Source: Planctomycetaceae bacterium | GTDB lineage: Bacteria > Planctomycetota > Planctomycetia > Pirellulales > Pirellulaceae | NCBI GenBank assembly: GCA_002685655.1 | Contig: NYXM01000066.1 | Coordinates: 1-17,248 of the forward strand | Length of the DNA stretch: 17,248 bases | Direction: 5' to 3' | Shown: positions 279 through 13,537 of the stretch, piece by piece | Layout of the letters: every line of letters begins with the position of its first letter | Position numbering within the stretch: position 1 is the first letter of the stretch | Position numbers and translations under genes: made by a program | Notes under the pieces: generated by a model | Database searches by the model: none | The model's input: only the letters and a program-made list of their open reading frames with translations | Told to the model about the DNA's origin: nothing

Positions 279-1769
279 ATGGCTCGCGCTATAATGCCCT
301 CTCACGGAAAAATCCCCTTTCACGAGTCCATGTCGTCCATGCCAGAGCCTACCACTCCGCAAAACCGGCCCTCCAATCTTCGTCAGTTGCGAGAAAGCGG
401 TTGGACTTCCAAGACGATCAAAGACGAACTTCGTGACAACCTGTTGCGGCAGCTGGCCGAGGGGACCGAGCTTTACCCGAGCATTGTTGGGTACGACGAA
501 ACGGTTATCCCAGAAGTGAATTTGGCGATCCTGGCCGGACACGACATGCTGTTCCTTGGCGAGAAGGGGCAGGCCAAGAGCCGATTGATGCGGTCTTTGG
601 TTCAGTTTCTGGATCCGTGGATCCCGTTCCTCGACATTTCCGGCACGCCGTTTCATGAAGATCCAATGCTTCCAATCAGCCACGCCGGCAAACAGTTTGT
701 CGCCGAACACGCACACGATGATGTGCCAATCGCTTGGTGGCACCGTGACGATCGTTATGCGGAGAGGCTGTCGCCGGGGACCAAGTTTGCGGATGTGGTT
801 GGCGAAATTGATCCGGCGAAACTGGCTGGCGGTGTGAGTATGTCGACTGAAGAGGCGTTGCACTTTGGTTTAATTCCACGGATGCACCGTGGCATTTTTG
901 CGATGAACGAACTGCCGGAACTCGACGAGTTGGTTCAAGTTGGCATGTTCAACATTCTGGAGGAACGAGACGTGCAGATTCGAGGCTTTCCCGTTCGCTT
1001 CGAAATCGACGTGTTGCTGCTGTTTAGCGCAAATCCATCCACCTACAATCGAAGCGGAAAAGTGATTCCGCAGTTGAAGGACCGCATTGGTTCGGTAATT
1101 CACACACATTACCCACACGATCGCGCACTGGGCATCCAAATCATGGAGCAGGAAGCGGGGATCGATTTGGGGGGTGACTATCCGGTGGCGGTGCCCTATT
1201 TCATGCGCGAGATTATCGAGCAGATTACCGTGCAGGCCCGCAAGTCAAAGTACATCGACCAGCAATCAGGCGTCAGCGCACGGTTCAGCATTGCCAACTA
1301 TCGCACCATGGTTGCTTCAGCCCGTCGCCGCGCGGTCATCTTAGGCGAGCAGCCGGCTGTGCCTCGCATCAGCGATTTGGGACACCTGTATTCGTCATCT
1401 TTGGGTAAGGTGGAACTGGAATTGATGAGCAGCCATCAGATGTCGGAACGGCAAATCCTGGATGGCGTGATTGCCGAGGCAGTTCAAGTCGTATTCGAAC
1501 AATACGTCGACCGACACGGGCTGGACGAGATCAGCCATATCTTCGGACGCGGAGTGAAGATCGAAGTTGGCGACATGCTGCCGTCGAGCAAATATGCCGA
1601 GCGGTTGAAGCGTGTTCCGCCGATATGGAACAAGGCGTTTGAAGTCAATGCAGCAGAAGTCGAGCAGATGCGGGCGTCGTGTGTCGAGTTTGTTCTGGCC
1701 GGCCTCTATTCGCTCGACCAGATCTCACGTTCACAATCGCATGGCACACAGGTTTACGAGATCGAGTAG
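279..1769 (+). CDS. MoxR-family AAA+ ATPase (magnesium chelatase ChlI-like)
   Basis: A 496-residue cytosolic AAA+ ATPase. Visible motifs are Walker A GEKGQAKS (residues 94-101), Walker B IFAMNE (206-211, Asn in place of the usual Asp before Glu), sensor 1 in LLLFSANPS (Asn252), and a candidate arginine-finger region PQLKDR (264-269). No signal peptide or membrane segment is seen. MoxR-type ATPases usually act with a VWA-domain partner to remodel or metallate client proteins, and such a partner follows at 1946. The first 45 residues are Pro/Ser-rich and probably disordered. The start is set by a strong ribosome binding site. Annotation pipelines often call such proteins magnesium chelatase, but no BchD/BchH genes are present, so chlorophyll chemistry is not implied. 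Family assignment is firm; the client is unknown. Confidence 0.88.
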
Positions 1770-1792
1770 CCTAACTTGCTGGAAAGTGTGTA

Positions 1793-1869
1793 TTGTAAAG
1801 GGGTCGGGAGTCATTTGTGCGAAGCACCCGAAGGGCCGTTCCGGCAAATGACTCCCGACCCCTTTACAA
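1793..1869. repeat. 25-bp perfect inverted repeat, REP/MITE-like
   Basis: Positions 1793-1817 and 1845-1869 are exact reverse complements (25 bp), separated by 27 nt. The outer part of each arm reads TTGTAAAGGGGTCGGGAG, or its complement. Arms of this AAAGGGGTC type resemble the REP palindromes that RAYT (REP-associated tyrosine transposase) proteins act on; that link is from memory. A transcript across it would form a very stable hairpin between the MoxR and VWA genes, which could attenuate or process the message. There is no T-run directly after the right arm, so it is not a textbook intrinsic terminator. No transposase lies nearby. Confidence 0.85.
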
Positions 1870-1945
1870 CCCCCGACCTCTTTTCAACCCCCTGGCGACG
1901 GCGAAACAACCGAACTGACCCACTAACACTGGAATTCCTGGTGCC

Positions 1946-3682
1946 ATGTCGAAACAACGTCGCGTCGGTGGCATCATTCACACGTACCAGAAGTACGATC
2001 CTCGGCAGTTTCCCAGTCCTAGGCAACCGCCCACGGATGCGGTTTCGCCGGCCTTCGATCACATGCTGATGTTCGGTAGCCGCCGGAGGTTGACCGAGGA
2101 AGAGCTGGCGAGGGCGATCCACCTCGATCCCAGTCAGATTGGCGGGTTCGGCCCGAGCATTGATGCTTTGTTGGCGATGTTGCGGGAAAGGAAGCGGAAG
2201 ATCCTGGAGAAGTACGAAACGGACACGGTTCGGCAGCTCGCGAAGCAACAATATCAGACGCTCGGCGAAACGCTGAAGCCACCCAAAAAGCAGTGCGATC
2301 GTTTTCAGCTGGCATTTGAAGCCGAGCAGATTTACGAGCTTGAGCGTGTCTGGTTTGCGGCGGGCGAAGACCGGTCGCAGTTTGCCCGGGGGCTCGTGCA
2401 ACTGATCGAAACGTTGGGAAACAAATACCAGGTAGATGAACTCGCCGCCAAGTACGTTTTCACTGGTCGGACTCCGCTGACGGTCCCAGAAGCTCTTGCC
2501 GTTAAGGAAGAATTGGAGAAGATTGACGAACTCATCAAGCAACTTGAAGAGGCACGTGAAACGGCACAGATTGCCGTCGTGGACATGGATGCCCTGGCCG
2601 AATTCACCGAACCGGGTGATGTTGAGAAGCTGCGAGAGATGCAGCGGATGGTCGAAGAGTACATTCGCGACATGGCCGAACAGCAGGGACTCCACCGCGA
2701 TGGCGGCGCGTTTCAACTAACGCCGAAAGCGTACCGCTTGTTTCAGGGGCGTCTGTTGGAACGCATCTTTAGTAATTTGCAGGAGTCGCGGACAGGGCGG
2801 CATCAAGGTGCGGTCGAAGGCGACGGTGCCGTTGAACAGCAGCAGACCAAACCGTACGAGTTTGGCGATTCTCTGACTCACATGGACATTCCTCAGACGT
2901 TCGTCAATGCGATGTTACGTCAGTCCAAAGAAGGTCAGTCGAACGATTCGAGCAGCAGCACGTCGCAATTGCCTATCCGACTAAAGCCGGAAGATATCGA
3001 GGTTCATCGCACTCGGAACACGCCAAAATGTGCGACCGTAGTGATTATGGACATGAGCGGTTCGATGCGCTACGACAGCCAGTACATGAATGTCAAACGC
3101 ATGGCGCTGGCGATGGAGGGCCTGATTCGCTCGGAGTACCCCGGCGACCACCTGCACTTCATTGAAATGTACACATTCGGTAAGCCCTGTCGACCGGGTG
3201 AAGTGATCGATCTGCTGCCCAAACCGGTGACGATCACCCGTCCCGAAGTGCGGTTTCGGATCGACATGAGTCGCGAAGACATTAGCGAACATCAGATTCC
3301 GCCGCACTTCACGAACATCCAGCACGCCTTGCAACTCAGCCGCAATTTCTTAGCCGGCCAGGATACGCCCAATCGCCAGATTATATTGATCACCGACGGT
3401 TTGCCGACGGCGCACTTTGACGAGCAGTGGCTGTACCTGCTGTATCCGCCGCACCTGCTAACCGAACAAGCGACGTTGCGTGAAGGATTGCTGTGCCAAC
3501 GCGAAGGCATCACCATCAACATCTTTCTGGTGCCCAGCTGGTCACAATCTGAAGAGGACATTCGGTTCGCCTACCGCTTGGCGGAATCGACGACGGGGCG
3601 CGTCTTTTTCACGGCTGGTAGCGACCTGGATCGCTGCGTGGTGTGGGACTACGTGAGCCGTCGGCGCGAGATGTTGGGATAG
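1946..3682 (+). CDS. VWA domain protein, partner of the MoxR-like ATPase
   Basis: A 578-residue protein with no signal peptide or membrane segment, so probably cytosolic, unlike membrane-anchored BatA/BatB. The first ~340 residues are charged and helical, with likely coiled-coil stretches around 170-240, and hold no recognised domain. A von Willebrand A domain fills roughly residues 355-570, with a complete MIDAS metal site: D369-x-S371-x-S373 (in MDMSGSM), T456 (in FTNIQHAL) and D484 (in ITDGLP). It follows the AAA+ gene by 176 bp, a gap that contains a 25-bp inverted repeat. MoxR plus VWA pairs such as RavA/ViaA act as chaperone-like complexes; by analogy this protein could present clients to the ATPase. 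The ribosome binding site before the ATG is weak. Its stop codon is only 6 bp from that of the convergent radical SAM gene. Confidence 0.85.
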   Translation: MSKQRRVGGIIHTYQKYDPRQFPSPRQPPTDAVSPAFDHMLMFGSRRRLTEEELARAIHLDPSQIGGFGPSIDALLAMLRERKRKILEKYETDTVRQLAKQQYQTLGETLKPPKKQCDRFQLAFEAEQIYELERVWFAAGEDRSQFARGLVQLIETLGNKYQVDELAAKYVFTGRTPLTVPEALAVKEELEKIDELIKQLEEARETAQIAVVDMDALAEFTEPGDVEKLREMQRMVEEYIRDMAEQQGLHRDGGAFQLTPKAYRLFQGRLLERIFSNLQESRTGRHQGAVEGDGAVEQQQTKPYEFGDSLTHMDIPQTFVNAMLRQSKEGQSNDSSSSTSQLPIRLKPEDIEVHRTRNTPKCATVVIMDMSGSMRYDSQYMNVKRMALAMEGLIRSEYPGDHLHFIEMYTFGKPCRPGEVIDLLPKPVTITRPEVRFRIDMSREDISEHQIPPHFTNIQHALQLSRNFLAGQDTPNRQIILITDGLPTAHFDEQWLYLLYPPHLLTEQATLREGLLCQREGITINIFLVPSWSQSEEDIRFAYRLAESTTGRVFFTAGSDLDRCVVWDYVSRRREMLG

Positions 3683-3688
3683 ACGCCA

Positions 3689-4969
3689 TCACGAACTGAT
3701 TTCCACCACGTCAGGTTCGCTCATTTCCTGCGGCGGTTCGTTGCGAGTGTCTCGCCAGTTGTCGGCGTTGAAGTGCTTCGAGTACACGCCGAATTCATGA
3801 AAGGCAATCTTCTTGGCGATTCGATAGGCCCAACTCTTTTCGGGAATCTCGCTACCCGGATTAAACTGTGACGGTCGCGACCACATGGCGTCTAGTTCCG
3901 GCCGTGCTGTCTTGCGGGCCGTCGAGTCTTTCGCGCCATGCTTGTCGATCAACTCGCCCATCAAGTCGGGGCGTTCCAAGACGATGCAGCCGCGCGTGTT
4001 TGTCGCGGCGGCCTCACGAAAATCTCGCAAGAATGCCGAGTCATTGAACACTTCGCGGAGAGGTCGCTGGTCGTGAATTGAGTCCTTGGAGAACTGAATG
4101 ACCGGACAGGGTTCGATGTCGCCCCAAGGAGTGATGTGATGTGTGAAGCCGATCGCCATCGGACACAGTGCTTGACCGTCGCCGTCGTAATATGCATCGA
4201 TGACGAAGATTGGCTTATTCACTCGCAAGTCGACGACAAACTGCCGCGCGCGGCGTTGTTGTTCGAGCGTCAGCGAAAGTTGCTCGTTCGGATCGGGCCC
4301 CACCGGGCGATAGATGTGGAACCAGGTGTACAACACGCCCATTTCGATCAGACGGTCGATCCACTCGTCGGTGAGCAAGTCGTCGATGTTCGACCGGCAA
4401 AGACTCGTGCAGACGCCTGTCATGACCTTGTTGTTCACACAATGCTGGATGCCCTCCATCGACTTGCTGTAGACATCGGCGCGGCCACGACGTTCGTCGC
4501 TGACGATCTCCGAGCCTTCAATGCTGACCAGCACTGTCGCATTTCCGATCTTGCGGAGCCGTTTGGCCGCGTTGTCGTCGATGAAGTGTCCGTTCGTGAA
4601 AACCTGGAAATAGGCGTCGGGGTGGGCTTCGAGGATTTCGTATAACTCGTCGTGCATGAACGGTTCGCCGCCCAGGAGGCCGAAAAACGAATTGCCCATA
4701 GCCTTAGCTTCATTGATCATCCGGTTCATCGCGGCAACGTCAATTTTCTGTTGCTTGGCCGCCACGTCCACCCAGCAGCCCTGGCACCGCAGGTTGCAGC
4801 TGTTGATGATCGAAATGTAAAGGTAAGGTGGAAAGAATTCACCTCGCTTCAGGCGGCGCTTGTGGCGTTGCACCGAACGCAGGCCCTTGACGCCCATGTT
4901 CCAGCCAAGCTTCCACAAGAGCCGTTTGTCGGTCTCCATCAGGAGACGTTTGGCCATACGCAAGTACAT
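3689..4969 (-). CDS. Radical SAM protein with SPASM/twitch-like cysteines
   Basis: A 426-residue radical SAM enzyme. The CX3CX2C motif that binds the SAM [4Fe-4S] cluster is C58-C62-C65 (in SCNLRCQGC), and the GGEP SAM-contact motif is at 100-103. Near the C-terminus, C269-X13-G283-X4-C288 fits the opening of a SPASM/twitch domain; C328 could be a further ligand, so one auxiliary Fe-S cluster is likely. The basic N-terminal ~45 residues (MYLRMAKRLL onward, KRHKRR-rich) could be amphipathic. The frame stays open to 5128, but the first 53 codons are Arg/Pro-rich and overlap a hairpin repeat, so I prefer the ATG at 4967-4969; no strong ribosome site supports either start. It lies 288 bp downstream of the ATP-grasp gene on the same strand. 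SPASM-type enzymes often modify peptides or proteins; the substrate here is unknown. Confidence 0.82.
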   Translation of the reverse strand: MYLRMAKRLLMETDKRLLWKLGWNMGVKGLRSVQRHKRRLKRGEFFPPYLYISIINSCNLRCQGCWVDVAAKQQKIDVAAMNRMINEAKAMGNSFFGLLGGEPFMHDELYEILEAHPDAYFQVFTNGHFIDDNAAKRLRKIGNATVLVSIEGSEIVSDERRGRADVYSKSMEGIQHCVNNKVMTGVCTSLCRSNIDDLLTDEWIDRLIEMGVLYTWFHIYRPVGPDPNEQLSLTLEQQRRARQFVVDLRVNKPIFVIDAYYDGDGQALCPMAIGFTHHITPWGDIEPCPVIQFSKDSIHDQRPLREVFNDSAFLRDFREAAATNTRGCIVLERPDLMGELIDKHGAKDSTARKTARPELDAMWSRPSQFNPGSEIPEKSWAYRIAKKIAFHEFGVYSKHFNADNWRDTRNEPPQEMSEPDVVEISS

Positions 4970-5080
4970 GTTGTCGCTTCTTGGCGGGGCAGGGCGAAAA
5001 TGTAAACCGAACCCCAAGTATACCACCGAGACGGTCCGCGCGACAGGAAGGCAACGGCAGACTCCGTGGCGTACTTGGTT

Positions 5081-7371: not shown

Positions 7372-7575
7372 AAATCGGCGAAATGATCCGCGTACGCCAC
7401 AATTTTATGTTCGGATGAAGGCAATGCAATCATTCCTGCCGTGACTCGACATTACGTCTCGGGCTACGTAGACTTGGAAATTATACCATTTACTCTTTTA
7501 CTGCCCTTCCTGGATTGCCAGGTCTTACATCGAGTTGTGGTCAAAATCGTGTTTTCAGACCTTAAGAAATCTCGC
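7372..7575. promoter_or_regulatory. Divergent intergenic region, probable promoters both ways
   Basis: These 204 bp separate the minus-strand metallopeptidase operon from the plus-strand terpene operon and must hold both promoters. The middle is AT-richer than its surroundings (about 7475-7500), with a TATACC element at 7482-7487 that could serve as a plus-strand -10 box, though no good -35 is seen. No operator palindrome was recognised. An open frame through this region joins the cyclase gene in frame from a GTG at 7441 but encodes an implausible hydrophobic leader. Confidence 0.4.
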
Positions 7576-9465
7576 GTGACCAGTGCGTTTCAGAGCGCAC
7601 GCAAGCAGCTTTTGGCGTCGCGTGCACCGGAAGGGCACTGGATTGGCGAACTTTCGAGCTCGGCGCTTTCGACGGCCACAGCGGTTAGCGCCTTAACGCT
7701 CGTTCAGCGCAATCACGTTGATTGTGGAGCCTCCGGTCAGTTGCCTCTGATCGAAGGGGGCGAAGGGGGCGCGCAGATTGGCCAGTTGATTGCTGGTGGT
7801 ATCGCCTGGTTGGCGGAACGGCAGAACGAAGACGGTGGCTGGGGAGACACGGACAAGAGCTATTCCAACATCTCGACCACAATGTTAGCGATTGCTGCCT
7901 TTCGTTTGGCGGGTGAGGCAGACAAGCGATCGGGTTTGATACAACGGGCGGGCGGATTTGTCGAGTCGCAGGGAGGCGTGCCTGGGCTGCGGCGTCGTTA
8001 CGGCAAGGACAAGACGTTTGCCGTTCCGATTCTCGCCAATTGCGCGATGGCTGGCATGGTCCCTTGGCAGCAGGTTTCAGCGTTGCCCTTCGAATTGGCC
8101 TGTTTTCCACAGGCTTTCTATCGCTTCATGCGGTTGCCGGTGGTCAGCTACGCGATTCCCGCATTGGTGGCAATCGGCCAGGCTCGGCACTACCACAAAC
8201 CACCGCTCAATCCGTTCGCGCGGCTTGTACGTGCCGTGGCGGCCAAGAAAAGCCTCCGTGTGCTTGAGACCATTCAACCGGAGAGCGGTGGGTACCTGGA
8301 AGCGATTCCGTTGACAAGCTTCGTGGTGATGAGCCTGGCGTCTATTGGAAAAAGTGACCTACCCGTCGCTCGGCGAGGAGTTGACTTTCTCTTGGCGTCA
8401 GTTCGAACGGATGGCAGTTGGCCCATTGACACGAATCTGGCCACATGGAATACAACGCTGGCAGTCAACGGATTGGCGGGCGGCGGTGAAGACGTCGCAC
8501 GGCTTGAATGCCTCGATTGGCTCCTTTCCTGTCAGCAACTTGAGCGCCATCCATTCACCGGCGCGGCTCCGGGCGGGTGGGGATGGAGCGATCTCAGTGG
8601 TGCGGTGCCGGATGCCGACGACACACCTGGCGCGTTGCTTGCCTTGGCCGCATGGCGGGACGCACCATCATGCCCACCCCAGCACTGTCCAGTTTTGGAG
8701 CAGGCGGCCTGTGACGGCCTTGGCTGGCTGCTCGCATTGCAGAATCGCGATGGCGGCTGGCCGACATTCTGTCGTGGGTGGGGAGCCTTGCCATTTGACC
8801 GATCCGGCTCGGACCTGACGGCCCACGCGCTGCGAGCGATTCATGTTTGGCAACCACTGGGGGAGACGGATTCCGGGCCTTCTCATGTCGGCCCGGCAAG
8901 CCGAGCGTTTGCCCGGGCGATCGACCGCGGATTTCGTTTCTTGACCCAAGAGCAACGCTCAGATGGTAGCTGGGTCCCGTTATGGTTTGGCAACCAGGAC
9001 CACCCTCGCGAGGAAAACCCCATCTACGGTACCGCGAAAGTCTTGATGGCGTATCGTGATTTTGATCGAACCGCATCAAGTGAAGCCCAGCGGGGTTTAG
9101 ACTGGTTGCGAGAATCACAGAACGGCGACGGTGGCTGGGGGGGAGGAGCCTCGATTCCGACGGCACGACCAGGTGCCGCAACAAGCAGTGTCGAAGAGAC
9201 TGCCTTGGCTGTCGAAGCACTGATGATGGACGTGGCTGGCGAATCGACTCAAAAGGCTGTCACAAAAGGACTTCGGTGGCTGGTCGAGGCAGTCGAATCC
9301 GGGGAGTACCTGGAAAACTCGCCGATTGGTTTTTACTTCGCGAAGCTATGGTATCATGAGAGACTCTACCCACTGGTCTTTACGGTTTCTGCGTTGGGTC
9401 GGGCCCTCACCACACCAGACCAATCGTCCCGCCAAAAATCATCGACAGCCCGCCTGACTTGCTAA
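7576..9465 (+). CDS. Squalene-hopene cyclase-like class II terpene cyclase
   Basis: With a GTG start at 7576 the product is 629 residues, close to the ~630 of bacterial squalene-hopene cyclases. The protonating DxDDT motif is present as DADDT (D346-D349 in PDADDTPGALLAL). Several QW-type repeats are seen: AERQNEDGGWGD, LASVRTDGSWPIDTNLATW, LALQNRDGGWPTF, TQEQRSDGSWVPLWF and RESQNGDGGWGGG, followed by the SSVEETALAVEAL segment common in the family. It should fold as two alpha-barrels and bind the membrane monotopically. Family members cyclise squalene, oxidosqualene or linear prenyl chains. A polyprenyl synthase gene follows after 34 bp, while no squalene synthase is present. The frame is open back to a GTG at 7441; I chose 7576 because VTSAFQSARKQLL fits the usual family N-terminus, but GTG 7549 is also possible. 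Confidence 0.87.
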   Translation: MTSAFQSARKQLLASRAPEGHWIGELSSSALSTATAVSALTLVQRNHVDCGASGQLPLIEGGEGGAQIGQLIAGGIAWLAERQNEDGGWGDTDKSYSNISTTMLAIAAFRLAGEADKRSGLIQRAGGFVESQGGVPGLRRRYGKDKTFAVPILANCAMAGMVPWQQVSALPFELACFPQAFYRFMRLPVVSYAIPALVAIGQARHYHKPPLNPFARLVRAVAAKKSLRVLETIQPESGGYLEAIPLTSFVVMSLASIGKSDLPVARRGVDFLLASVRTDGSWPIDTNLATWNTTLAVNGLAGGGEDVARLECLDWLLSCQQLERHPFTGAAPGGWGWSDLSGAVPDADDTPGALLALAAWRDAPSCPPQHCPVLEQAACDGLGWLLALQNRDGGWPTFCRGWGALPFDRSGSDLTAHALRAIHVWQPLGETDSGPSHVGPASRAFARAIDRGFRFLTQEQRSDGSWVPLWFGNQDHPREENPIYGTAKVLMAYRDFDRTASSEAQRGLDWLRESQNGDGGWGGGASIPTARPGAATSSVEETALAVEALMMDVAGESTQKAVTKGLRWLVEAVESGEYLENSPIGFYFAKLWYHERLYPLVFTVSALGRALTTPDQSSRQKSSTARLTC

Positions 9466-9486
9466 TCATCTGCTTGCTTTCGGAAT

Positions 9487-9502
9487 TGAGGATATCACCT
9501 TG
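9487..9502 (+). promoter_or_regulatory. Ribosome site and TTG start of the DUF116 fusion gene
   Basis: GAGGAT lies about 8 nt before a TTG at 9500-9502. No ATG or GTG fits better upstream of the conserved DUF116 region, so a TTG start is likely and may lower expression relative to the cyclase gene. Confidence 0.55.
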
Positions 9503-11356
9503 GCTTCAGCACCAACGTCGCGCCAATTGACCGAAAAGGCGGATTCGGGCCAACCGAAACGCAAATCACGTCGGCGGAAGACATCCCATTTGAAAGAAGT
9601 TCCGCCGACGAAGACACAGCGCGAGGAATTGCGCGGCAAGTGCGCCGCAGTCACAGCTCAACTGGATAAGAGCATTCCGCTTGCGAAGGAAGAGATGGAA
9701 CGCTTCGTCCGCGAGATTCTGGATCACATGGGTCTGCCTGAATCGTATCTTGGCTGGACCATGGTGGTCTTTGCTTCCGAATTCTGGCGCGAACAGGTTG
9801 CCGCGATTCCGCCCGAACGACGGCTCTTCCTACTGCCCCACTGCTTGAAGCACGCCGAAGGGTGTCCCGCTGACTATGACGAATTCGGTTTGGAGTGCAA
9901 AGAGTGCGGTGCCTGCAGCATCGCGGACTTTCGCACCGTCGCGGACGATATGGGCTACAAGGTTTTGGTTGCCGAAGGTTCGCCGATTGTCCTGAAGATC
10001 ATCGTCAGTGGCCATGTCGACGCGATCGTCGGCGTCGCCTGCCTGAATGTCTTGGAAAAAGCGATCGACAAGATATTGCTGGCAGGAATTCCTTGCATGG
10101 CCGTGTCCTTGCTCTCGAGCGACTGTCGCAATACGTCAGTGGATGAAGACTGGGTTAGCGAAATGATCGCCCTGCGTGCGGAGGTCCCGGTTCAGCAGAC
10201 GCAAACCTATGTTCACCTGTTGCGTACGGCCGCCAATATGTTCGATGCTGACGAGCTGGAGCGGTTGGTGCCGCGGGCGCGCGGTGGCCCCCGGCTGGCC
10301 GAAATGAATGGTCAGGGGATTGGTGGTTTGGATCCAATCGCTGGAACCGAGGCCTTGGCGTACGACTTCCTTTCGCTCGGCGGAAAGCACTCGCGCCCCT
10401 TTATTACGCTGGCGGTCTATGACGCGCTGACGGGGGGCAAGGCAACACAGGCCGATGGCCAAGCCGCTGCCGATGCAATTTCGGATGCGGTCCGTCGCGC
10501 CGCGATGTCGATCGAGACATTCCACAAAGCGTCGTTGGTCCATGATGACATTGAAGATGACGACGCCTTCCGCTACGGCGAAGATGCAGTGCACCGCCGC
10601 TATGGCATTCCGACGGCGATCAACGTGGGCGACTACCTGATCGGCCTGGGATATCGTCTGGTTAGCCGTGAGACAAAGACGTTGGGCGCGGACGTGGTCG
10701 CTGACATTCTGGACAATCTGGCGGACGCGCATATCAAGCTCTCCGAAGGCCAAGGTTCCGAACTGCTGTGGCGAGATGCCAAAGACAAACGTCTGAAGCC
10801 GATCGATGCGTTGAAGATCTACGCACTGAAGACTTCGCCCGCGTTTGAAGCCGCGTTGTATGCCGGAGCTCGTTTGGCCGGGTCCGTGGATGAGTATGTA
10901 AAGCCGATTCGCCAATTCTCGCGAAACATGGGAGTCGCCTTTCAAATCCTCAATGATCTGAAAGACTGGCACGGCGATTCGGACAACAAACTTTCAGCAG
11001 GCGGTGACATCTTGGGCGGCCGCCCCACGGTGCTGTTGGCCTTGGCGTTGCAGAACCTGCCCGCCGCCGAACAGGCAGAGTTGATTTCGTTGGTTGATGG
11101 CAAAGTCTCGGCGTCCGAGTTTCAGCTCCGGCGCGTGTATCAACTGTTCGAGCAAGCGGATGTCTTTGAACAGGCACATCGTCTGGTCGACAAGCATCAG
11201 CAACGCGCCGAATCCATCGCCGACGAAGTCCAACCAGCGGATCTGCGTCGGTTGTTCTACTACTTGGTCGACACTGTTCTGGAACGTCCCACCGAGTCCG
11301 CAGAGGTGGTGGACCCGCCAATCGTCCTGACAGATTTGACCCTTGCCAAGGCGTGA
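9500..11356 (+). CDS. DUF116-polyprenyl diphosphate synthase fusion protein
   Basis: A 618-residue two-domain protein. After a basic, disordered leader (~1-45) comes a DUF116-like domain (~60-235) with clustered cysteines C115, C122, C133, C136 and C139, where CxxCxxC suggests an Fe-S or metal site, then a GVACLNVLEKAI stretch. From ~275 it is a trans-isoprenyl diphosphate synthase: LGGKHSRP (substrate-binding GGKxxRP), first Asp-rich motif DDIED (349-353 in LVHDDIEDDD) and second motif NDLKD (485-489), where Asn485 replaces the usual first Asp. Residues before the first motif (Ala at -5, Phe at -8) hint at a product longer than C15, perhaps C20-C25. The enzyme would condense IPP with an allylic diphosphate in the cytosol. 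The start is TTG with GAGG upstream. It follows the cyclase gene by 34 bp, so is probably co-transcribed. The role of DUF116 is unknown. Confidence 0.87.
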   Translation: MASAPTSRQLTEKADSGQPKRKSRRRKTSHLKEVPPTKTQREELRGKCAAVTAQLDKSIPLAKEEMERFVREILDHMGLPESYLGWTMVVFASEFWREQVAAIPPERRLFLLPHCLKHAEGCPADYDEFGLECKECGACSIADFRTVADDMGYKVLVAEGSPIVLKIIVSGHVDAIVGVACLNVLEKAIDKILLAGIPCMAVSLLSSDCRNTSVDEDWVSEMIALRAEVPVQQTQTYVHLLRTAANMFDADELERLVPRARGGPRLAEMNGQGIGGLDPIAGTEALAYDFLSLGGKHSRPFITLAVYDALTGGKATQADGQAAADAISDAVRRAAMSIETFHKASLVHDDIEDDDAFRYGEDAVHRRYGIPTAINVGDYLIGLGYRLVSRETKTLGADVVADILDNLADAHIKLSEGQGSELLWRDAKDKRLKPIDALKIYALKTSPAFEAALYAGARLAGSVDEYVKPIRQFSRNMGVAFQILNDLKDWHGDSDNKLSAGGDILGGRPTVLLALALQNLPAAEQAELISLVDGKVSASEFQLRRVYQLFEQADVFEQAHRLVDKHQQRAESIADEVQPADLRRLFYYLVDTVLERPTESAEVVDPPIVLTDLTLAKA

Positions 11357-11394
11357 TACCCGCTTAGGATCGTTCGAGGAATTACTGTCCGATA

Positions 11395-11445
11395 GTCGCC
11401 TTTCGCTCCGCGAAAGGAACGCGCTTTCGCGGAGCGAAAGACGAC
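11395..11445. repeat. 22-bp inverted repeat, terminator-like hairpin
   Basis: CTTTCGCTCCGCGAAAG (11400-11416) and its exact reverse complement at 11424-11440 are separated by 7 nt. Pairing continues through GTCG/CGAC outside one mismatch (11399 with 11441), giving 11395-11416 with 11424-11445. Each arm is also a smaller palindrome (CTTTCGC/GCGAAAG). It begins about 40 bp after the synthase stop codon and could end that transcript, although no T-run follows. I recall similar CTTTCGCTCCGCGAAAG palindromes dispersed in planctomycete genomes. Confidence 0.75.
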
Positions 11446-11603
11446 AATAAGAGATCGAACACTGCTTACCCCACTTGTTCGCTTTAACAATGCACCAGGG
11501 GTCTGTTTTGGCAGGACGGCACTGGCCTGTCTCGGCGGCCTTCCGGCCGTTGAGTTGCTGGAAATCGTGACACCGGTCTGATCGTTCGATAGAATGTGAG
11601 CAG

Positions 11604-11674
11604 TGTGAGTGGCTTGGTTTTCTTGTTTGGTTTTCTAGCTGGGTTTTCTAGCTGGGTTTTCTGGTCCACTCACA
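11604..11674. repeat. 4 x 13-bp tandem repeat bounded by 9-bp inverted repeats
   Basis: Four consecutive 13-bp units occupy 11614-11626, 11627-11639, 11640-11652 and 11653-11665, with consensus TKGGTTTTCTAGC and the first and last units diverged at their ends. The array is bounded by TGTGAGTGG (11604-11612) and its exact complement CCACTCACA (11666-11674), so the repeats sit in the loop of a possible cruciform or hairpin. Confidence 0.8.
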
Positions 11675-11839
11675 TCATGCCGGCCCACTCGGATCATCCC
11701 GGAGGCCACATTCACCGCACCACAGCTCACTGCACCGTCTATCCATTGGTCGGATTGTCTGCAAACCATGCATGATCTTTCGCAACACGGACTTTGTCGC
11801 CCAGTCACCGAATTTCGCCCTGCCCATTAACGAGATCTC

Positions 11840-13117
11840 ATGAAAGACCAGTACGACTGCATCGTCGTTGGCGGTGGCCCCGCGGGAGGCTGCTCCGCCG
11901 CTCTGATTGCCGAGGCTGGATTTTCGACGTTACTCGTTGAACGCGAAAAAATACCGCGCTTTCATGTCGGTGAATCGTTGATGCCGGAAGCGTACTGGAC
12001 GTTCGAGAGACTGGGCGTGCTCGACAAGATGAGGCAGAGCGATTTCGTCAAGAAAGTCAGTGTTCAATTCGTCAGTTCGACGGGTGCCGAATCGCAGCCG
12101 TTCTTCTTCAGAGAGCACGATCCCCGAGAATCCGCACAAACCTGGCAGGTGACACGTGCCGACTTCGACAAAATGCTCTTTGATAACGCTGCGGAGAAAA
12201 GTGCCGAATGTCACGATCAAACGCATGTGATGGACATCGTGCGTGAGAAGAGACGCGTGGTTGGTGTCACGCTGAGGACGGCCGCTGGCGAGCTTCGCGA
12301 AGTGCGCAGTCAGGTTCTTGTGGATGCCACGGGCCAACAAGCATTCTTGGCCAACCGCCTGGGGCTTCGCATTGATACTCCAGAACCGGGCAAAGTCGCG
12401 ATATGGGGGTACTACCGAGGTGCTCGAAGAGATGCCGGCGAAGATGGTGGTGCCACGATCGTCTTGCACACGCGCGATAAGTTATCCTGGTTCTGGTTCA
12501 TTCCCCTGGCTAACGATGTTACGAGCATCGGTGTGGTTGGTGACCGTGATTACCTGTTCCAGGGGCGAGGTGAACCGTCGGACATTTTCGAAGATGAACT
12601 GGTCAAGTGCCCGGCGCTGGTCGAACGCCTGATGGACGCCGAGTTGACCAGTGAGTTTCGCAGGGCCAAGGAGTTCTCCTATTCGACAAAACAGAACGCG
12701 GGTGACGGCTGGATTATGGTTGGCGATGCCCGGGGGTTCATCGACCCGATCTATTCTTCGGGAGTCTACTTTGCACTCCGCTCAGGCGAACTAGCGGCGG
12801 ACGCTATCGTTACAGGCTTACGCGACGGCGACACGACCGCATCCCAGTTGTCCGGATGGTACGAAGACTTCTCCGCGGGAACGCGGCGGATTCAAAAACT
12901 AGTCGATGCCTACTACAACAACGACTTCAACTTCGGGCAGTTCCTCCGTGATTATCCGCAGCATACCGGAAACCTGACGGACTTGTTGGTCGGCCGGATT
13001 TTCCATGACCGTGCTGGGTGTATGTTCGATGACATGGTAGCAGAACTGGCCAAAGCGACCGTCGCGGCTGCGCAAAAACGCCGAATGGCCGCCAAACGGG
13101 CCAACGCGGAGAATTAG
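11840..13117 (+). CDS. FAD-dependent oxidoreductase, halogenase/geranylgeranyl reductase type
   Basis: A 425-residue single-component flavoprotein. The FAD-binding GxGxxG is GGGPAG (11-16), followed by the VGESLMPEAYW stretch (43-53) and a late GDARGFIDP segment. Both signatures of flavin-dependent halogenases are present: WxWxIP as WFWFIP (217-222) and FxxPxxSxG as FIDPIYSSG (300-308). K71/K72 in FVKKVSVQF could correspond to the halogenase lysine that forms the chloramine. Related proteins without proven halogenation include geranylgeranyl reductases, and automated labels such as tryptophan halogenase are common and unreliable. It is probably cytosolic or membrane-associated. It lies 483 bp after the polyprenyl synthase gene on the same strand, which suggests a prenyl-derived substrate, by inference only. 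The ATG is preceded by a weak ribosome site. Confidence 0.82.
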   Translation: MKDQYDCIVVGGGPAGGCSAALIAEAGFSTLLVEREKIPRFHVGESLMPEAYWTFERLGVLDKMRQSDFVKKVSVQFVSSTGAESQPFFFREHDPRESAQTWQVTRADFDKMLFDNAAEKSAECHDQTHVMDIVREKRRVVGVTLRTAAGELREVRSQVLVDATGQQAFLANRLGLRIDTPEPGKVAIWGYYRGARRDAGEDGGATIVLHTRDKLSWFWFIPLANDVTSIGVVGDRDYLFQGRGEPSDIFEDELVKCPALVERLMDAELTSEFRRAKEFSYSTKQNAGDGWIMVGDARGFIDPIYSSGVYFALRSGELAADAIVTGLRDGDTTASQLSGWYEDFSAGTRRIQKLVDAYYNNDFNFGQFLRDYPQHTGNLTDLLVGRIFHDRAGCMFDDMVAELAKATVAAAQKRRMAAKRANAEN

Positions 13118-13237: not shown

Positions 13238-13537
13238 CTACCAAGGTGTCATGTAAACGCCGTTGGTCCGTATTCCCACGTCGCCAGGCGGAACACCGAG
13301 GTCGTTGAAATAGCGCGAATGGAAGGCGCCGATGTACCTCGGATACGCGTCCTCGACGGACTCGTAGCGAGCATACGGCAGGGCGTGAAACAGGCCATGT
13401 CTCGCATTGACGGTGGGTTTTGCCGTCGGTCTGCGGTAGGCCATCCATCTTCGGAAGGGGCCGGCGGCGTGCGTGTCGACGGCCAGCATACCAAATGCAA
13501 CGGTTGTCAGGGTCAGAGCGATTACGGCTCGTTTCAT
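13238..13537 (-). CDS. Small secreted protein of unknown function
   Basis: A 99-residue protein with a clear Sec signal peptide: MKR, a hydrophobic core to about residue 20, and a likely signal peptidase I site after THA (residue 24). The mature part (~75 residues) is rich in Arg, Tyr and Pro. Its C-terminal half (YPRYIGAFHSRYFNDLGVPP and GDVGIRTNGVYMTPW) resembles a motif I recall in other planctomycete small secreted proteins; no function is known to me. There are no cysteines after the signal and no membrane anchor, so it should end up free outside the cytoplasmic membrane. AAGGAG about 8 nt upstream of the ATG is a strong ribosome site and makes this a real gene. It is convergent with the FAD oxidoreductase and divergent from the haem protein, with 250 bp between the two starts. 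Confidence 0.8.
   Translation of the reverse strand: MKRAVIALTLTTVAFGMLAVDTHAAGPFRRWMAYRRPTAKPTVNARHGLFHALPYARYESVEDAYPRYIGAFHSRYFNDLGVPPGDVGIRTNGVYMTPW

Follow-up and report, generated by a model that had tools for sequence, protein, structure and literature searches.

A conserved planctomycete gene module pairing a class II terpene cyclase with a DUF116–prenyl synthase fusion

The window, a 17,248-nucleotide stretch of a Planctomycetaceae bacterium analysed here as a whole (contig NYXM01000066.1, assembly GCA_002685655.1), carries genes for a class II terpene cyclase, for a prenyl synthase fused to a DUF116 domain and for a halogenase-like flavoprotein. From these three genes, claimed to lie on one strand, an earlier sequence-only reading had proposed a terpenoid pathway that does not go through squalene. 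All three are present on the plus strand, and the gap between synthase and flavoprotein (11357–11839) holds the wreck of a fourth gene. The features are the following.

3689..4975, minus strand: radical SAM protein with a CxxxCxxC motif (Pfam Radical_SAM, 54 bits)
7537..9465, plus strand: class II terpene cyclase with a DADDT motif, belonging to a separate group (Pfam, alignment, tree)
9500..11356, plus strand: fusion of DUF116 (cysteine-rich, Rossmann-like model) with a trans-polyprenyl diphosphate synthase (Pfam)
11400..11440, no strand: two palindromic 17-bp repeats at the site of the missing body of a chorismate-lyase-like gene
11492..11581, plus strand: remnant of the chorismate-lyase-like gene, its last ~28 codons (75% identity to L004, E 9e-9)
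11840..13117, plus strand: FAD-dependent halogenase-type flavoprotein, accessory (motifs; 21 of 80 loci)

The cyclase and the fused synthase form a conserved pair. Using the fusion protein as bait, we fetched 80 Planctomycetota loci from named records, and the cyclase gene lies directly upstream of the fusion in 77 of them; it is lacking in L017, L029 and L050 (contig edge) and partial in five others, mostly at contig ends. In a draw of 149 genomes from the phylum, 34 carry the cyclase, and 33 of these 34 also carry the DUF116-synthase. The fused synthase (A2) has a match in 51 of the 149, of which 38 are kept as DUF116-synthase genomes: 13 in which only the synthase part is covered are dropped, while G042, G089 and G112 are kept on partial matches. 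The hypergeometric p values for co-occurrence ignore kinship among the genomes. A comparison of gene neighbourhoods, which had been suggested as a check, therefore upholds cyclase and prenyl synthase as belonging together but not the trio as a unit, as the flavoprotein occurs in only 21 of the 80 loci, three of them by partial match.

Both parts of the fusion are recognised by Pfam, DUF116 (PF01976) at 138 bits against a cut-off of 25 and polyprenyl_synt at 149 bits, which bears out the proposed joining of a prenyl synthase to a cysteine-rich domain. Seven cysteines are invariant across 29 DUF116 rows. The first Asp-rich motif of the window synthase (DDIED) is intact and the second (NDLKD) carries one change; the distant locus L113 has DDxxD. 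All 7995 scored candidates of the fusion family and 7108 of the 7998 scored for the cyclase family lie above threshold, and the best 120 matches listed for each are planctomycete wherever the source states the organism. An IspH-like fold was considered for DUF116; the listed matches are only generic Rossmann-like ones, a missing match that does not exclude IspH. A fusion of DUF116 with a polyprenyl synthetase, of the Psta_0175 type, is already in print (PMC5898192) and has the same domain composition as the module synthase; it differs in that the passages of that source concerned with it give only a general electron-transfer role, and no cyclase or pathway.

In the cyclase, Pfam recognises SQHop_cyclase_C at 141 bits and SQHop_cyclase_N at 81 bits. 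The DADDT motif is intact, as had been claimed, and DxDD is present in 20 of 20 aligned rows. The start at 7576 used earlier is probably too late and the true one probably 7537, where the database copy (P0121, 642 aa) begins, because Arg13 of that copy lies before 7576 and at least 90% of the 12 rows aligned share it. Some sources label the gene squalene-hopene cyclase (SHC), and the operon could in that case be read as an ordinary SHC next to an ordinary prenyl synthase, a reading to which the common superfamily, the two-domain class II organisation in Pfam, the DxDD acid and the QW-like repeats all lend themselves. However, the cyclase scores 112 bits against TIGR01507, far under the SHC cut-off of 431, and module cyclases are 23–27% identical to SHCs (23–26% for two canonical planctomycete SHCs), from which they also differ by a shorter loop past the DxDD region and a WFGNQ..EEN insert. 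In an unrooted tree of 23 cyclases, a 100/100 branch separates 14 module rows from five SHC rows. The SHC side comprises planctomycete, Streptomyces, Cupriavidus and Bradyrhizobium SHCs and, in addition, a Bacillus SqhC. A Halorussus cyclase joins the module side, outside the module clade; Halorussus, one Streptomyces row and Paenibacillus are long branches whose own placements are unsure. Bacillus SqhC, a tetraprenyl-beta-curcumene cyclase, is a class II enzyme that cyclises a non-squalene polyprenoid and works with a long-chain prenyl synthase. The row that we take to be SqhC from its superoxide dismutase neighbour (L127) is 25% identical to the module cyclase and branches with SHC rather than with the module.

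The supply of squalene in carrier genomes bears on the same question. The module cyclase is found in all 14 genomes examined, with a canonical SHC alongside in three; these genomes entered the analysis through loci retrieved by means of the synthase and so form no independent sample. A search for the squalene-synthase family (SQS/PSY, PF00494) gives no match in seven of them and a match in the other seven, G010 having a sole match at 62.7 bits. Among the negative genomes are G001, which is the finished chromosome of Adhaeretor mobilis, and the draft G009; in drafts a missing SQS/PSY gene may be an assembly gap. Since seven of the 14 have such genes, SQS/PSY absence is not a rule among cyclase genomes. 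Within the window, a Pfam scan of 10 open reading frames (ORFs) finds no SQS/PSY protein, in line with the reported absence of HpnC/D/E. Because the cyclase falls in a separate 100/100 group and no gene of the squalene-synthase family is seen in seven of 14 carrier genomes, including a finished one, the cyclase is, on sequence grounds, very probably no squalene-hopene cyclase, and the ordinary-SHC explanation is very unlikely. The same two observations support the earlier idea of a product that does not go through squalene, and the seven genomes make it unlikely that this enzyme is a sole hopanoid cyclase acting on squalene.

The pair belongs to a wider set of genes. The window radical SAM gene, whose ORF is open up to 5128 and whose orthologue matches start near residue 52, has an orthologue in every one of 22 module genomes. 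In the 149-genome draw 45 genomes match at 1e-30; the 29 that reach E ≤ 1e-90, set off by a clear gap down to 1e-52, are counted as having an orthologue. The DUF116-synthase is present in all 29 of these genomes and the cyclase in 28, and an orthologue is lacking in nine of the 38 DUF116-synthase genomes. The closest solved structure, SkfB (E 1e-11), is not informative. A ferredoxin protein is found in all 22 module genomes and an H-protein-like carrier, a second H-protein, in 20 of them at E ≤ 2.5e-13; in G009 and G045 the H-protein-like gene is indistinguishable from ordinary GcvH. Compact operons of the module genes occur in more distant planctomycetes. In L113 the order is H-protein-like carrier, CobW-type GTPase, cysteine desulfurase, radical SAM, a 112-aa protein, 4Fe-4S ferredoxin, DUF116-synthase, alpha-alpha toroid protein and cyclase. 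The lipoyl-lysine motif of this carrier is apparently kept, judged by eye, and the 112-aa protein, again by eye, apparently resembles the HdrA N-terminus; Pfam and NCBIfam give nothing above cut-off for it. Across 20 distant loci from 19 genomes, ferredoxin-type proteins are encoded in 15, toroid proteins in 12, H-proteins in 11, CobW in 10 and radical SAM in eight. Near the bait in the 80 loci the corresponding numbers are 27 for radical SAM, 22 for toroid, 11 for ferredoxin, 10 for H-protein and none for CobW; of these partners, radical SAM alone is encoded in the window. The stand-alone toroid protein (L108 9089–9973, L113 8702–9631, L040 17279–18217) is weakly similar to Rab geranylgeranyl transferase beta. 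In distant genomes a gene of ~1 kb separates synthase and cyclase and was considered as a UbiA candidate; where scanned, it encodes the toroid protein. Judged by gene content, these comparisons show that the cyclase group is tied to the DUF116-synthase, to one radical SAM orthologue, to a protein of the ferredoxin type and to a carrier resembling H-protein. The last three, and the chorismate-lyase-like gene described below, are better partners of the pair than the flavoprotein.

Such partners would also suit an Fe-S replacement for squalene synthase, in which ferredoxin-fed DUF116 would reductively remove diphosphate from polyprenyl diphosphates, or couple them, and the cyclase would act on the hydrocarbon so formed. 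The fusion of DUF116 and its invariant cysteines to a prenyl synthase, the presence of radical SAM and ferredoxin throughout the 22 genomes and the seven SQS/PSY-negative genomes agree with this explanation, which we nonetheless consider improbable.

In 75 of the 80 loci the gene that immediately follows the synthase is chorismate-lyase-like; the loci without it are L007, L011, L044, L059 and L077, of which L044 and L077 end at the synthase. It co-occurs with the synthase in 19 of 24 genomes, also where the two are unlinked. Its protein family (A3) matches the chorismate-lyase fold (UbiC/DUF98) and shares with these lyases the TPLGR motif and the positions of an Arg and a Glu. In one hhalign comparison (64% probability, P 6.4e-5), Arg74 and Glu172 fall on UbiC Arg76 and Glu155, which we take to be catalytic positions; over 20 rows Glu172 is invariant and Arg74 is kept in at least 90%. 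The likeness ends with the setting of the gene in a terpenoid cluster, its reduction to a remnant in the window and its profile scores: PF01947 matches two of 20 members with a best E of 0.055, none above the cut-off, and Pfam and NCBIfam give nothing above cut-off for the protein. Palindromic repeats of 17 bp are also present in the planctomycete loci L027 (12793–12879) and L055 (11787–12430), some of them in tandem; they may be repetitive extragenic palindromic (REP)-like elements connected with the loss of the window lyase-like gene.

The flavoprotein has the WxWxIP and FxxPxxSxG motifs that were read in it, as WFWFIP (residue 217) and FIDPIYSSG (residue 300). Among its homologues the first motif is kept in 19 of 19 and the second in 18 of 19, with one T for F. 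Lys72, which we take to be the catalytic Lys of FAD-dependent halogenases, aligns with a Lys of 5bva and is kept in 17 of 19 (one gap, one Pro). These features are those of phenolic FAD halogenases of the CmlS, PltA and 5bva type, whereas the score, 191 of 900 bits, is below the CmlS equivalog cut-off. The further suggestion of a geranylgeranyl reductase (GGR)-type enzyme is not supported, as TIGR02032 gives 131 bits against a cut-off of 158.8 and the halogenase motifs and Lys position are kept. We describe the protein as a putative halogenase, with hydroxylase activity as a possible alternative. In every one of the 21 flavoprotein loci the lyase-like gene separates the flavoprotein gene from the synthase, and the gene order of Pirellulales is shown by sequence to be synthase, then the UbiC-like (chorismate-lyase-fold) gene, then sometimes the halogenase-type flavoprotein.

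By sequence comparison, then, the module is real and conserved. Its likeliest product would be a long-chain polyprenoid closed into rings; in Pirellulales this might be a polyprenyl-4-hydroxybenzoate meroterpenoid that is sometimes ring-halogenated. We tentatively favour, at somewhat less than even confidence, the explanation that the window holds part of this planctomycete isoprenoid module and that the module works as follows. The fused synthase would make a long, linear polyprenyl diphosphate, to which, in Pirellulales, a UbiA-type enzyme encoded elsewhere would couple 4-hydroxybenzoate supplied by the lyase-like protein. The DxDD aspartate of the cyclase would then protonate the distal chain end and close the rings, as in MstE. 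The flavoprotein would halogenate or hydroxylate the phenol ring, and radical SAM, DUF116, ferredoxin and H-protein would perform low-potential reductive tailoring. In lineages without the lyase-like gene, the cyclase substrate would be a polyprenyl chain with another head group. As the lyase gene of the window is broken, 4-hydroxybenzoate would there come from another source, or the pathway would be altered. MstE, the merosterolic acid synthase, is described in the relevant part of PMC9401909 as a monodomain class II cyclase with geranylgeranyl-dihydroxybenzoate as its substrate. The proposed likeness is that of class II cyclases whose substrate is a prenylated hydroxybenzoate, while the module cyclase matches both SQHop domains, a difference drawn from the description of MstE.

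Several observations weigh against this explanation. The fold alone cannot tell a lyase from an effector-binding domain, and our confidence is lowered by regulator domains that fit the lyase model no worse than UbiC. The lyase profile is unmatched in operon-carrying genomes such as G030, G045, G058, G072 and G093, and the aromatic step is therefore a lineage feature and not part of the core. No UbiA or aromatic prenyltransferase is found among the identified cluster proteins, and the one UbiA/MqnP-like enzyme per genome may well serve menaquinone (UbiA genes were classified in three of the 14 genomes and in eight of 10 fetched loci, with L101 and L103 left out). An EboC-like UbiA protein also occurs in G001 (L097) and G005 (L104), at 191 and 176 bits against a cut-off of 250. 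All the module chemistry is, moreover, inferred, and flavoprotein and lyase may form a separate small-molecule branch, by analogy with the producer of dibromo-p-anisic acid.

Such a branch would make the locus two neighbouring pathways in one transcription unit, one, of cyclase, synthase and Fe-S partners, for a cyclic lipid that is isoprenoid throughout, comparable to the C35 sesquarterpenes of Bacillus, and one, of lyase and halogenase, for a small halogenated 4-hydroxybenzoate comparable to 3,5-dibromo-p-anisic acid. Bmp5/Bmp6 provide a precedent for a lyase–halogenase couple. The invariable position of the flavoprotein after the lyase-like gene fits two pathways, as do the optional nature of both genes, the existence of core operons without the lyase and the lack of UbiA among the identified cluster proteins, and dibromo-p-anisic acid is itself, according to part of PMC12078418, made by a planctomycete. 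On the other hand, the lyase-like gene follows the synthase far more regularly than the halogenase does (75 against 21 of the 80 loci) and accompanies it even when unlinked. We regard two pathways as possible, though doubtful.

The UbiA question also touches on menaquinone, for which the fused synthase could make the side chain and the cyclase close its end to give an omega-cyclic menaquinone. The UbiA-type candidate is MqnP-like, and planctomycetes use the futalosine route, as stated in part of PMC3914697. Yet one or two further stand-alone prenyl synthases are present in all 14 genomes, the fusion occurs in only about 38 of 149 planctomycete genomes and the lyase-like gene is left unexplained, so that menaquinone modification appears quite unlikely.

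The window holds further genes. At 279–3682, Pfam identifies a Mg-chelatase/MoxR-like AAA protein and, next to it, a von Willebrand factor A protein; of the 80 loci, L002 alone has both. On the minus strand, a D-Ala-D-Ala-ligase-like ATP-grasp ORF overlaps a zinc metallopeptidase ORF (PF15887; 5258–7371), each being present in six of the 80 loci, which are the same nearest relatives for both. A 99-aa ORF (13238–13537, minus strand) matches no Pfam family and is kept in L001 and L002; its start resembles a signal peptide, judged by eye. L001 is the nearest relative of the window by sequence and L002, from the draft genome G009, the second-nearest. Rfam finds nothing above gathering score in the window.

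No description of the module was recognised in the literature searched, as judged by titles, abstract openings and passages, and we do not claim that it is unpublished. Planctomycete terpenoid clusters with polyprenyl synthetases and terpene cyclases, including those of Adhaeretor mobilis, are ascribed to carotenoids and hopanoids in passages of PMC8303584, and the hopanoid-gene passages of PMC12628686 add nothing. Overall, the conserved pair stands, while the trio and the reductase lack support; the non-squalene idea is supported and the choice of partner genes is not, the lyase-like, radical SAM and Fe-S/lipoyl partners having been missed.

Planctomycetes serve as a test case for how sterols and hopanoids arose. 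An unlikely extension is that many Planctomycetota make an unseen cyclic polyprenoid membrane lipid as a sterol or hopanoid substitute, free of squalene synthase and independent of oxygen. The Fe-S domain of the synthase, with ferredoxin, the lipoyl carrier and radical SAM, would reduce the chain before or after cyclisation, and Pirellulales would add a 4-hydroxybenzoate head. If a non-squalene cyclic lipid is made, hopanoid calls based on the cyclase gene would be wrong, and readings of lipid biomarkers would change; there would also be a new class II cyclase branch with Fe-S partners. The Fe-S side could make the module more than a variant of class II cyclase pathways. The module also places DUF116 in a pathway that can be tested, and it predicts a concrete, measurable class of product.

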